In this document: piece by piece, positions 7,075 to 52,297 of the stretch
How positions within the stretch are numbered: position 1 is the first letter of the stretch
How the letters are laid out: every line of letters begins with the position of its first letter
NCBI GenBank assembly: GCA_018266755.1
Contig: JAFDZW010000005.1
Span: forward strand, 434,001-498,000
Length of the DNA: 64,000 nt
From: Bacteroidota bacterium
GTDB lineage: Bacteria; Bacteroidota; Ignavibacteria; Palsa-1295
Reading direction: 5' to 3'
The notes under the pieces: model-generated
What the model was told of the DNA's origin: nothing
The model's database searches: none
The model's input: the letters and a program-made list of their open reading frames with translations, nothing else
Translations under genes and position numbers: made by a program

Positions 7075-7157
7075 GTCATTCTGAGCGAAGCGAAGAATCC
7101 CTTGATGAAACCTTGTGAGGCTCCGCCAAATGGATTCTTCGCTTCGCTCAGAATGAC
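7075..7157. repeat. 83-bp palindromic repeat, copy 1 (best copy)
   Basis: Begins GTCATTCTGAGCGAAGCGAA and ends with the perfect reverse complement: arms of 26 bp without mismatch around a core of about 31 bp. The core is asymmetric (GATGAAACC...GGCTCCGCCA), which gives the element an orientation. It lies in the gap upstream of gcvP. Four related loci occur at about 41.6, 43.8, 47.3 and 60.0 kb. Confidence 0.9.
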
Positions 7158-7388
7158 AACTTAACTACAATATCATCAATAATCCCCTCTATCGTGAATC
7201 TCTTGACCGTATCATTCCAAGTCTGTCCTCGGGGTATGTGTTTGTTGCTGATAATACAATGCATAGCTGTACACTCCGTTTAGAGATTCTGAAGTCCTGA
7301 CTTACTTTTCCTACCGCAATGACCATCGAAGCCACTCGGAATTCCCTCCCCCTCTCAAACGTTCTACCCCGCTCTGTAGCACAGGGAC
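7158..7388. other. Non-coding gap before tRNA-Ile2
   Basis: No convincing gene. It should contain the promoter of the following tRNA, but I cannot place it with confidence. One short open stretch reads plausibly as protein but has no start and no recognisable relative. Confidence 0.4.
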
Positions 7389-43746: not shown

Positions 43747-43812
43747 GACTTGAAAGGCCGTCGTTCACCCGAGGAATGCCCGTAACCGCCCCTTCGAACC
43801 ACCCAACCAATC

Positions 43813-44034
43813 GTCATTCTGAGCAACGCGAAGAATCCCCCAATGAAACGCAGTAAGCCCCCTTTGAACCTCTCAAACCGACGTCATTCTGAGCGAAGCG
43901 AAGAATCCCTCGATGAAACGCAGTAAGCCCCTTCGAACCACTCAACCGAACGTCATTCTGAGCGAAGCGAAGAATCCCTTTGGCGGAGCCTTTCAGGGTT
44001 TCAGCAAGGGATTCTTCGCGTTGCTCAGAATGAC
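43813..44034. repeat. Palindromic repeat, locus 3: three tandem left halves plus one right arm
   Basis: Left-arm units start at 43813, 43883 and 43952 (periods 70 and 69): GTCATTCTGAGC followed by GCGAAGAATCCC. The first two are followed by ATGAAACGCAGTAAGCCCC and a short A/C-rich spacer. The third continues into a core in the opposite orientation (GGCGGAGCC...) and the right arm ending GCTCAGAATGAC at 44034. Arm ends vary (GCAACGCG in the first copy and in the right arm). It lies between ispH and the XRE gene. Confidence 0.88.
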
Positions 44035-44094
44035 AGCTTGTTTGGTAAAGAATCGGTCTCGACATCGCACACCCCTCCCACAACCATACAATCC

Positions 44095-47314: not shown

Positions 47315-47397
47315 GTCATTCTAAGCGAAGCGACGAATCCTGTTGGCGGAGCCTCACAGGGTTTCATCAAGGGATTCTTCGCTTCGCTCAGAATGAC
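47315..47397. repeat. Palindromic repeat, copy 4 (inverted orientation)
   Basis: Eighty-three bp, same length as copy 1. The core TTGGCGGAGCCTCACAGGG is the reverse complement of the core of copy 1, so the element sits in the other orientation. The left arm has two changes (TAAGCG, CGACGAA). It lies 38 nt past the cmk stop. Confidence 0.88.
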
Positions 47398-47434
47398 GCC
47401 TGGGGTGGGCAAATACCCACAAAACTATTCTCGC

Positions 47435-48908: not shown

Positions 48909-48925
48909 GTAACAGTAACTTAACA
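48909..48925. promoter_or_regulatory. Candidate Pho box upstream of pstS
   Basis: GTAACA-GTAAC-TTAACA, two hexamers with a period of 11 bp, 113 nt before the pstS start. It resembles the TTAACA-N5-TTAACA boxes of PhoP in Bacillus and is similar to the site upstream of pstC. Confidence 0.45.
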
Positions 48926-49038
48926 ATACGATATTGCCGAGGTAACGGCACATTGAATCGCTTGTATGGCCTCCCAATGTTTGGTACACGAACAGTTCAT
49001 ACTGTTCATTGCATTCTTCACAACCATTTGAACAAACA

Positions 49039-50073
49039 ATGTCAAAGCGAATCATAGCATCGATCTTGGCCCTCGCTGTTGCCGTGGGCTGCGGGAAGAA
49101 ATCGGACACGGCACCAGGAGCCGACTCGACAAAGACAATGTCGACGGCGCTGACCGGTGCAGGCTCGACGTTCATCGAACCGATCATGACCCACTGGGTA
49201 AGCGAGTTCGCCAAAGCAGGCAACCCGAACGTAAACTACCAGGGAGTCGGCTCGGGCGCTGGAATTAACAATCTCATCGATCACACGGTAGACTTCGCAG
49301 GCTCCGATGCTCCGATGAACCAGGGTGAACTCGATCGCGCAAAGGCGCCGGTCGTGCATATCCCGGCAGTCATCGGCGCGGTGTGCGTCTGCTATAACAT
49401 CAAAGGTGTCGATAGCGGACTGAAACTCGACGGCGATGTACTCTCGAAAATCTTCATGCAGACGGTTACATACTGGGACGCCCCCGAGATCAAGGCAATG
49501 AACCCGGGCATGAAGCTCCCGCACGAGAAGATCTTCACGGTCCACCGTTCCGACGGTTCGGGTACGACGGCAATCTTCACGAATTATCTGACGAAGGTCA
49601 GCGATACCTGGAAATCGAAGATCGGCGAAGGCAAGACGGTCAACTGGCCGGAAAGCGCACTCGGCGGCAAGGGAAATGCAGGCGTTGCCGGCATTCTGAA
49701 GGAACATGCCAATTCGATCGGCTACGTCGAACTCGCGTATGCGGAGCAGAACAAGATTCCGTATGCGCAGATGAAGAACAGCGCGGGCAACTTCGTCAAC
49801 CCGAGCGTCGAGTCGGCCAGCGCGGCTGCCGATGGTGTCGATATGGGTGCAACCCTCACCCCGATGATCACCAACACTGCCAACCCGCAGGGCTACCCCA
49901 TTACGGGCTTTAGCTGGTGCATCATGTACAAGAACTCGCCGAAGGGAACGGACGTCAAGAAGTTCATGCACTGGATCATCTCCGACGGGCAGAACGACTG
50001 CAAGGCGCTCTACTATGCTCCGCTTCCGGAGAGCGTTCGTAAGCTGGCATCCGCCGCAATCGACGCGCAGTAA
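49039..50073 (+). CDS. pstS: Phosphate ABC transporter substrate-binding lipoprotein
   Basis: A 344-residue lipoprotein from ATG 49039 (10 in-frame residues upstream lack support), lipobox VAVGCGKK. Phosphate-binding motifs are LTGAGSTFIEP, YQGVGSGAGINN, DFAGSDAP and HRSDGSGTT. It should deliver phosphate to PstCA, whose genes converge on it from the other side of a terminator. pstB, phoU and phoBR are not in this window. Confidence 0.95.
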   Translation: MSKRIIASILALAVAVGCGKKSDTAPGADSTKTMSTALTGAGSTFIEPIMTHWVSEFAKAGNPNVNYQGVGSGAGINNLIDHTVDFAGSDAPMNQGELDRAKAPVVHIPAVIGAVCVCYNIKGVDSGLKLDGDVLSKIFMQTVTYWDAPEIKAMNPGMKLPHEKIFTVHRSDGSGTTAIFTNYLTKVSDTWKSKIGEGKTVNWPESALGGKGNAGVAGILKEHANSIGYVELAYAEQNKIPYAQMKNSAGNFVNPSVESASAAADGVDMGATLTPMITNTANPQGYPITGFSWCIMYKNSPKGTDVKKFMHWIISDGQNDCKALYYAPLPESVRKLASAAIDAQ

Positions 50074-50109
50074 ATTTCCCGGGAAAGACAAGAGAAGCCT
50101 CAACCTCGC

Positions 50110-50145
50110 AAAAGCCCCTTGAGACGAAAGTCTCAAGGGGCTTTT
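50110..50145. terminator. Bidirectional terminator between pstS and pstA
   Basis: Sixteen-bp perfect stem (AAAAGCCCCTTGAGAC) with GAAA tetraloop and Ts on both sides. Serves both converging genes. Confidence 0.92.
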
Positions 50146-50184
50146 GTTATGCCCTAAGCGTACGATACTCGAACGGTCTCCACA

Positions 50185-51075
50185 CTATCGTGCCATCCGA
50201 TTGCGAAGCGCAAAGCGTGTCAAAAGGCTGAGCGAAAGAATAAAGAATATTAAGATCATCGCACCCGCCAGCGCCAGATGATGCAGTGACTCATATGGGG
50301 ACGTGGCATATTTGTAGATGTTGAGCGGAAGCGCATCGATCGGCTGGTCGAGCGCCGTGCTGAATGTCATATTCCCGAATGCCGTAAACAACAGTGGCGC
50401 CGTCTCCCCTGCAATGCGCGCGATAGCAAGAACGACCCCAGTGATAATACCATCACGCGAGGCCGGCAGGATTACCGAGAACATCGTACGCGCTTCTGTC
50501 GCCCCAAGTGCGAGCGACGCCTCTCGCAATCCGTTCGGGACCAGCCGCAGAATCTCTTCCGTTGTGCGCATGATCGTCGGGATCATCAGTATCCCGAGTG
50601 CAAATGCACCGGCGACAACCGTGAATGCATGCCCTGGCATCATCTCTGCCGTCGGCAGAACGACAACCACGTACGCAAACAGACCAAGTACGATACTCGG
50701 AATGCTGTTGAGAACGTCGGTTAGCAACCGTACAATGCCGGCAAGCCGCGAGCGCGAGCCGGAGAGATAGACGCCGCCGAGGATCCCGAGCGGAATTCCG
50801 AACACACTCCCGAGCCCTAGCAATTCGAGCGTGCCGACGATGCCATTGAGCAGTCCGCCTCCGGGCTCTCCCTGCGGCGCCGGACCTTTGGTGAATACAT
50901 CGAGGTTGATCGACGATATTCCCCCGACAACGAGATAGCCAAGAACGGCAACGAGCGCCCCAACCGATACGATCGTTGCTGCAGTACAGAGGCCGATCAT
51001 TAGCCCGTTAACGATCCGTTGTCGACCGGCAAAGGTCCGCGGGTCGAGCCGTGCGCGTGTAAAGGAATGTGTCAT
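50185..51075 (-). CDS. pstA: Phosphate ABC transporter permease PstA
   Basis: A 296-residue inner-membrane protein with about six helices and the binding-protein-dependent permease motif (EASLALGATEARTMFSVILP). The segment SSINLDVFTKGPAPQGEPGGG is typical of PstA. Its ATG overlaps the pstC stop by 4 bp (ATGA). Confidence 0.95.
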   Translation of the reverse strand: MTHSFTRARLDPRTFAGRQRIVNGLMIGLCTAATIVSVGALVAVLGYLVVGGISSINLDVFTKGPAPQGEPGGGLLNGIVGTLELLGLGSVFGIPLGILGGVYLSGSRSRLAGIVRLLTDVLNSIPSIVLGLFAYVVVVLPTAEMMPGHAFTVVAGAFALGILMIPTIMRTTEEILRLVPNGLREASLALGATEARTMFSVILPASRDGIITGVVLAIARIAGETAPLLFTAFGNMTFSTALDQPIDALPLNIYKYATSPYESLHHLALAGAMILIFFILSLSLLTRFALRNRMAR

Positions 51076-52049
51076 CCGTTGATATTCTGGGCAGTGTAAC
51101 GTACTAGCAGTTTCGCGATGATATTCACCACCAGCGTGACGACGAAGAGTGTCAGACCAATCTCGATCAGCGCCGAGCGATACAATCCGGAGGCCTCCGC
51201 CAATTCGTTGGCAATCACACTCGACATCGTGTACCCGGAGTTGAAGAGTGACGCAGTGAACCGAGGCGAATTGCCGATGACCATGGTAACTGCCATCGTC
51301 TCACCCAGAGCCCTACCAAGGCCCAGAATGACCGCTCCGATGAAGCCGGACCGTGCATACGGCAGCACTGCATGCCAGATCGTCTGCCACTCGTTCGCGC
51401 CGAGTGCATACGAACCTTCGCGGATGGCCTGTGGGATGTTTCGCAAGATATCGCGTGAGACCGAGGTGATATACGGGATGATCATGATCGCCAGAATTAT
51501 CGAGGCGCTGAGCATATCATACCCATTTGGCGTGTCGCCGAAGATCGGCAGCTTCGAGAGCAGCCCATTCGCAGCGATCGGGGTCTCGACATATTTGACA
51601 AGGAACGGCTGCAAAACGAACAGCCCCCAAAGACCATAGACGACGCTCGGAATCGCCGCAAGCAGTTCGACCAGAAACGAGATCGGTCGGTACAGTCGTG
51701 GCGGACACATCTCCGAAAGAAAAATCGCCGAAAGTAAGCTGATCGGTACCGCGATCAAGAGTGCCCAGGCCGAAGAGTAGAGCGTGCCCAGAATGAACGG
51801 CAGTGCTCCGAATCGCTCACTGCCGGGATCCCACGTCTTATCTGTGAAGAAATGAAACCCATACCGATGGAGCGAAGCCGCCGAGCCGCTAAAGAGCTCG
51901 ACAAAGATCCCCACGATGATCGCCAATACGCTCAGCGCACACGCGGCCAGAATCGCATAATAGATCGTATCGATCGTTTTGCTTCCGAGGCGCCGCCGGG
52001 TCTTGTTGCGCAGGCTCGATTTCGATGTCGAGATGCCGGTATCAGACAT
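51072..52049 (-). CDS. pstC: Phosphate ABC transporter permease PstC
   Basis: A 325-residue inner-membrane protein from the ATG at 52049; a further 16 in-frame residues upstream are unlikely. Six helices, the WDPGSERFGALPFILGTLYS segment characteristic of PstC, and the permease loop EGSYALGANEWQTIWHAVLP. First gene of the pstC-pstA unit. A candidate Pho box lies 83 nt upstream. Confidence 0.95.
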   Translation of the reverse strand: MSDTGISTSKSSLRNKTRRRLGSKTIDTIYYAILAACALSVLAIIVGIFVELFSGSAASLHRYGFHFFTDKTWDPGSERFGALPFILGTLYSSAWALLIAVPISLLSAIFLSEMCPPRLYRPISFLVELLAAIPSVVYGLWGLFVLQPFLVKYVETPIAANGLLSKLPIFGDTPNGYDMLSASIILAIMIIPYITSVSRDILRNIPQAIREGSYALGANEWQTIWHAVLPYARSGFIGAVILGLGRALGETMAVTMVIGNSPRFTASLFNSGYTMSSVIANELAEASGLYRSALIEIGLTLFVVTLVVNIIAKLLVRYTAQNING

Positions 52050-52131
52050 GGGATATGGATATAGTTCTCCCCGAGATCGGGTTGCATGGGAGCACAACTA
52101 ATCCGCACGGAACATCGGTTCTCCCGGCAAA

Positions 52132-52148
52132 TTACCAAATCATTAACA
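52132..52148. promoter_or_regulatory. Candidate Pho box upstream of pstC
   Basis: TTACCA-AATCA-TTAACA on the plus strand: two hexamers with an 11-bp period, as at 48909. It lies 83-99 nt upstream of the minus-strand pstC start, so the repeats face away from pstC, opposite to their orientation at pstS. Confidence 0.42.
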
Positions 52149-52223
52149 ATTGGACACGACTATAAATCGGTGGAGACTATAGACCAGAAAATACAGTGGC
52201 GGGACCACAATTTAAAAAGAGTG

Positions 52224-52297
52224 CGGAGCGGACGGGACTCGAACCCGCGACCTCCTACGTGACAGGCAGGCGTTCTAACCAGCTGAACTACCGCTCC
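52224..52297 (-). tRNA. tRNA-Asp(GTC)
   Basis: A 74-nt cloverleaf on the minus strand. Acceptor GGAGCGG/CCGCTCC, D-arm with TTCAGCTGGTTAGAA, anticodon loop CTGTCAC (GTC), T-loop GGGTTCGAGTCCC. Discriminator G, no encoded CCA. Confidence 0.96.

Follow-up and report, generated by a model that had tools for sequence, protein, structure and literature searches.

Two putative Pho boxes upstream of pstS and pstC in an Ignavibacteria genome: an 11-bp direct repeat of NTAAY with an extended predicted regulon

Two short repeats precede the phosphate-transport genes pstS and pstC in a 64,000-nucleotide stretch of DNA from a Bacteroidota bacterium (Ignavibacteria, Palsa-1295; assembly GCA_018266755.1, contig JAFDZW010000005.1, positions 434,001 to 498,000; hereafter the window, in whose numbering unprefixed coordinates are given), and they are very probably Pho boxes, that is, putative binding sites of a response regulator of the PhoB/PhoP type. 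We file them as such because of their architecture (a direct repeat with an 11-bp period), their location before phosphate genes and their conservation. Both make most sense as instances of a single motif, the direct repeat NTAAY-N6-NTAAY, which we predict to be an ordinary Pho box with an extended regulon that includes an uncharacterised glycosyltransferase-like family. An earlier sequence-only reading of this DNA had proposed candidate Pho boxes with a TTAACA half-site at 48909 and 52132, and both sites lie where it put them. Pho box 1 (48909-48925, + strand, GTAACAGTAACTTAACA) reads GTAAC-AGTAAC-TTAAC in the coding direction, and its TAAY array (48910-48924) stands 115-129 bp upstream of the pstS ATG at 49039. 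Pho box 2 (52132-52148, which read on the + strand is TTACCAAATCATTAACA) belongs to an element on the - strand (52131-52148) that reads TTAAT-GATTTG-GTAAT in the coding direction, with its TAAY array (52131-52145) 82-96 bp upstream of the pstC ATG at 52049. Period, location and conservation thus uphold the Pho-box part of that proposal, while the literal TTAACA half-site gives way to NTAAY; the difference in orientation that it saw between the two sites disappears, as they point the same way relative to pstS and pstC when read in the coding direction, the motif being reversed only relative to phoB. The apparent opposition arose because TTAA is a palindrome and the sites had been read on the + strand.

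The motif came out of a scan in which it was not named beforehand, every four-letter word with at most one R or Y being sought as a direct repeat at periods from 6 to 24 in 25 pst/phoB upstream regions from 11 genomes of the family. TAAY at period 11 ranked first and was present in all 25 regions, which had been picked after a first look at the relatives' upstream regions had shown a shared repeat; the best of 12 shuffled sets reached 9. TAAY at period 22 ranked second (16/25), and the next ranks were near variants of TAAY at period 11. Eleven further regions, mostly operon-internal (G007 pstC, G004 pstC, G004 pstB, six pstSb and two intra-operon genes), had no site. The conservation in relatives to which the sequence-only reading had looked is borne out, as the motif recurs before the corresponding pst and phoB genes in 10 other members of the family. 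It is forward in 15 of 15 pst promoters, the porin promoter of the present genome carrying one reversed copy besides, and it is reversed relative to phoB in all 10 genomes that have PhoB. Across 22 sites of the relatives, pairwise letter agreement is 53% in the spacer as against 32% in the flanks (the TAAY letters themselves agree by selection), which argues that the sites are not merely undiverged DNA. At the level of the class, TAAYN7TAAY was found in six of eight pst loci, in some of them apparently before pstS; one of the eight loci has 36% GC.

In the genome from which the window comes (3.55 Mb), TAAYN7TAAY occurs 138 times and stands before each of the five known phosphate unit starts (pstS, pstC, porin-pstS2, phoB and the PhoU-like/pit pair), as compared to one of 62 control upstream regions (Fisher p = 6e-7); the controls were 250-bp regions upstream of automatically called open reading frames of at least 120 aa, taken from the window and two other stretches. 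A matrix built from the relatives only, with which 104 of the 138 sites were scored and 34 were not, ranked the window pstC site first of the 104, porin-pstS2 second and pstS 15th. The context of 20 of the genome's sites was inspected, and most are intragenic or lie before genes without a known phosphate link.

A search of 13 family genomes for triple arrays, defined as three TAAY at period 11, returned 67. Phosphate-linked genes follow 32 of them, namely pst-cluster genes (porin, the conserved gene after pstA, TonB-receptor/pstS), pstB|phoB, phoB, PhoU-like/pit, ppk and metallophosphoesterase, while the other 35 lie elsewhere or lack a recognised link. Among the 32, four point away from their gene (phoB of G000, G002 and G004, and the porin of G009). 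The present genome has six triple arrays, which lie before phoB, the porin-pst operon, a metallophosphoesterase lipoprotein (68 bp upstream), polyphosphate kinase (25 bp upstream; TIGR03705, 762 bits) and a glycosyltransferase-like gene, with one between small open reading frames; thus four of the six precede phosphate-related genes (phoB, porin-pst-phoU, polyphosphate kinase, phosphoesterase). The ppk gene is present in five of the 13 genomes and has a site upstream in four (reversed in G005), the fifth ppk being cut by a contig end.

The genome encodes three Trans_reg_C regulators, among which the candidate PhoB lies at C1:64227-64937 (L042 6225-6941), the other two being matched best by a CusR/CopR-type model. 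The best NCBIfam model for the candidate is TIGR02154 PhoB; its DNA-binding domain matches the solved structure of E. coli PhoB (1gxp, E 8e-23), and over its full length the best solved relative is RegX3. The partner kinase (L042 5085-6146) is closest to the PnpS and PhoR models. Orthologues of the PhoB-like protein occur in 10 of the 13 family genomes, and in all seven genomes of another genus (g3) phoB is divergent from pstB-phoU with an array between the two. We infer binding by this PhoB-like protein, together with the sign of the regulation and the signal. The operator would consist of NTAAY repeated directly every 11 bp, i.e. once per turn of the DNA, in two to four copies oriented toward the gene under control. 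When phosphate is scarce, the PhoB-like regulator would be phosphorylated by the PhoR-like kinase; it would then occupy the tandem half-sites in head-to-tail fashion and bring RNA polymerase to two separate places, pstS and pstCA. That box also stands before porin-pstS2-pstC2-pstA2-pstB-phoU, before phoB (where its reversed direction is consistent with autoregulation), and before the PhoU-like/pit pair, polyphosphate kinase and one secreted phosphoesterase. Two side observations concern the phoB locus. The box of the present genome (L042 6942-7136) is reversed toward a divergent hprK (HPr kinase) gene, and a look at the stretches of G002 and G004 turned up no homologue of hprK next to phoB. 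In several g3 genomes the array and phoB have a second conserved stretch between them, like TTAAGAAAT and with GTAAA after it (pstB-phoB intergenic regions L184, L186, L190, L191 and L192).

A number of observations weigh against the assignment of these sites to a PhoB-driven Pho box. There is no site before G004 pstB, G004 pstC or G007 pstC, and with these three added to the chosen scan set the count becomes 25 of 28. In the ranking by the relatives' matrix, the genome's own phoB sites fall outside the top 45 of 104 and the PhoU-like/pit unit comes only 26th. A profile search of the genome, in which a 31-position sequence-only model derived from the 22 relatives' sites was used and 150 of 378 candidates were scored, recovered none of the known pst sites, which were missed because motifs as short as these are too weak for such a search; the one place that it did report (E 0.13) lies between coaE-like and outer-membrane-protein-like genes, with no recognised phosphate gene after it. 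The total of 67 triple arrays is barely above the 51 found with the pattern read backwards, so that the count alone is weak evidence. The PhoB-like and PhoR-like proteins score under the curated cut-offs of every PhoB and PhoR model (246 bits for TIGR02154 with a cut-off of 296, 241 for the Bacteroides PhoB model with a cut-off of 270, and for the PhoR models 267 with a cut-off of 334 and 307 with one of 400). Neither window promoter has an in-phase copy of the promoter element TAnnTTTG, which is taken up below. Last, no PhoB orthologue was found in G001, G005 and G006 (best matches 37-38% identical), despite the boxes before their pst/porin operons, and this is the main fact against naming the PhoB-like protein as the binder everywhere; the three are drafts, 67-93% complete and in 190-430 contigs. 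In the same three genomes, and in G009, the window-type PstS is missing or weakly matched.

The boxes of G001, G005 and G006 lend some weight to the alternative that the boxes are real and are read, at least in some relatives, by another regulator of the OmpR family, a paralogue. Winged-helix regulators commonly bind direct repeats of such a period, which is in keeping with this alternative. Against it stand the array within the phoB-pstB intergenic region of seven g3 genomes, the presence of just three Trans_reg_C proteins in the present genome, two of which are of the CusR/CopR type by best match, and the fragmented state of the three drafts. On balance we consider a paralogue improbable, and favour the PhoB-like protein as the putative reader of the boxes.

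That the sites might be AT-rich promoter sequence in which two similar repeats arose by chance is suggested by the behaviour of the literal pattern. With up to two mismatches, TTAACA-N5-TTAACA matches in the window at the two sites only, and shuffled sequence gives 2.03 matches; in the whole genome there are 64 matches at up to two mismatches and seven at up to one, as compared to 219 for the pattern read backwards. Two of these seven are the window pstS and pstC sites, and beside the other five no phosphate gene was recognised among neighbouring open reading frames judged by eye only. The genome scan that the sequence-only reading had put forward finds none of the genome's other phosphate promoters: at up to two mismatches it misses the second pst operon (C5:1664000-1678000) and the promoter of phoB (C1:65024), as well as the arrays of ppk (C11:54529) and of the phosphoesterase (C5:1154341). 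As its matches do not cluster before phoU, phoBR, pstB or phosphatase genes, TTAACA-N5-TTAACA was rejected as the exact Pho box. With the literal count at chance level, the case for the two sites rests on their position and their conservation in relatives. The chance explanation is nonetheless already refuted statistically, in view of that conservation, the exclusive period-11 signal, the 5/5 versus 1/62 contrast and the lack of signal in the 11 further regions, and we give it almost no credence.

It is similarly hard to credit that core-promoter (sigma factor) elements of the lineage, and not an activator site, are what the repeats represent. Their distance to starts is indeed no more than ~130 bp, and some of them keep phase with TAnnTTTG, the sigma-A -7 element of flavobacteria (PMC9723704). 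Core-promoter elements are at odds with the single control upstream region in 62 that has the repeats, with a copy number of two to four, and with a distance to TAnnTTTG that changes in helical-turn steps (10, 21, 32); such steps and a variable copy number fit an activator, not a sigma contact. In 45 distinct arrays, six exact TAnnTTTG copies lie 10, 10, 11, 21, 32 and 32 bp past the last TAAY. With at most one mismatch allowed, eight promoters have the element at 10+11n bp, against 1.2 expected (2000 shuffles, the largest giving 7, and 9 being the largest for any residue class). The phasing idea was formed from the same sequences and neither window promoter shows it, and it is for these reasons a lead and not a result.

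The glycosyltransferase-like protein of the present genome (C2:173984-175132; L232:2485-3636) has no confident Pfam or PDB match, its best PDB relative being a TagF-like polymerase at E 0.023. The family (homologues L317-L326) occurs in 11 of 41 genomes with 57% mean column identity over 11 sequences, and some members weakly match Epimerase_2 (UDP-GlcNAc 2-epimerase), Glyphos_transf (CDP-glycerol glycerophosphotransferase) and MGDG_synth (monogalactosyldiacylglycerol, or MGDG, synthase). Forward arrays of two to four repeats lie upstream of the gene in six of the 11 genomes, from four families (G000, G005, G034, G030, G039 and G018), and five have no upstream array; three of the six array-bearing genomes have AT-rich DNA (loci at 32-38% GC), so that a higher chance rate applies to them. 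It is conceivable, if somewhat doubtful, that two things hold jointly: that the Pho regulon of the family extends beyond phosphate capture to this protein as a phosphate-starvation glycosyltransferase, and that the boxes work by being in helical phase, at 10+11n bp, with a TAnnTTTG promoter element of the Bacteroidota type. Were this so, the protein could rebuild envelope lipids or surface glycans and thereby spare phosphorus, a remodelling of the envelope that we propose tentatively.

As regulation, the predicted system matches what a specialist would expect. The Bacillus subtilis PhoP box consists of TT(A/C/T)ACA repeats with a TTAACA-like core and 11-bp spacing, and is alike in core and spacing in a different phylum. 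In boxes of PhoB and PhoP the protein binds head to tail on two direct repeat units of 11 nt, and the consensus differs among species (PMC4415409); the motif here resembles them in having two or more direct 11-nt units, and differs in its half-site, NTAAY as compared to CTGTCAT in E. coli and GTTCACC in S. coelicolor (PMC4415409). The cyanobacterial SphR box, found before pst and phoA, is made of three tandem direct repeats of CTTAACCT with 3-bp linkers, hence an 11-bp period (PMC1906773). It has the TTAAC core and the period in common with the present motif, in which the NTAAY half-site is instead followed by a loosely conserved RATTTG-like stretch, and it belongs to another phylum and another regulator. 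Within the Bacteroidota, the motif obtained by DNA affinity purification sequencing for PhoP of Riemerella anatipestifer has TTTAACA as its most conserved letters (PMC9603813), close to the core here; there hundreds of genes, as well as virulence, are tied to it, and pst goes unmentioned in the accessible text. PhoB of Bacteroides fragilis binds a pstC promoter fragment in an electrophoretic mobility shift assay and is required for pstC expression in low phosphate (PMC3547664); the regulated promoter is alike, and the accessible text gives no motif or consensus for comparison. No defined pst box was found in the literature on Pho boxes of Bacteroidetes, Flavobacterium or Bacteroides, a search mostly outside subscription papers. 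The kind of switch is therefore well known, and what has been worked out is its form and its likely targets in a little-studied family. For a family without such annotation in the literature searched, this gives an operator consensus that can be tested and a handful of candidate targets, among them polyphosphate kinase, secreted phosphoesterases, pit and the conserved glycosyltransferase-like protein.

With regard to the genes themselves, pstS (phosphate-binding protein; 49039-50073, + strand, alternative start 49009) scores 365 bits with TIGR00975 (cut-off 205). The matches of this PstS in named organisms are mainly cyanobacterial and proteobacterial, at 36-47% identity; SusC/SusD-like and T9SS-tail-like proteins and the TAnnTTTG elements would fit a place in the Bacteroidota. 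On the - strand lie the permease genes pstA (50185-51075; TIGR00974, 257 bits, cut-off 193), which is convergent with pstS, and pstC (51072-52049; TIGR02138, 327 bits, cut-off 196; the longer open reading frame 51072-52097 was used in its family search). A tRNA-Asp gene (52223-52297, - strand) lies upstream of pstC, with box 2 between them. The tail-to-tail arrangement of pstS and pstCA makes two transcription units, as the sequence-only reading had it; its single transporter needs amending, in that the window cluster contains no pstB, and the genome's only PstB above the family cut-off and its only PhoU protein belong to a second pst operon 1.18 Mb away. That cluster (C5:1664000-1678000) runs porin-pstS2-pstC2-pstA2-pstB-phoU; after phoU come a PhoU-like protein (PF01865) and then a Pit transporter (PF01384). 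This suggests that the two pst permease pairs of the genome may share one PstB and one PhoU.

Outer-membrane genes were seen within pst clusters at L040 11048-12631, L136 7631-8902, L140 2246-3472 and L142 6928-8235; that of the present genome is of the Porin_O_P type, and those of the g3 genomes form a conserved family located after pstA, with no Pfam match. Elsewhere in the window there is a dispersed repeat with the core GGGATTCTTCGCTTCGCTCAGAATGAC, present in at least seven copies on both strands (7092-7165, 41605, 43789-44045, 47315-47408 and 59999); three of the copies form a tandem of ~70 bp, and the repeat creates spurious open reading frames ending in RFAQND.

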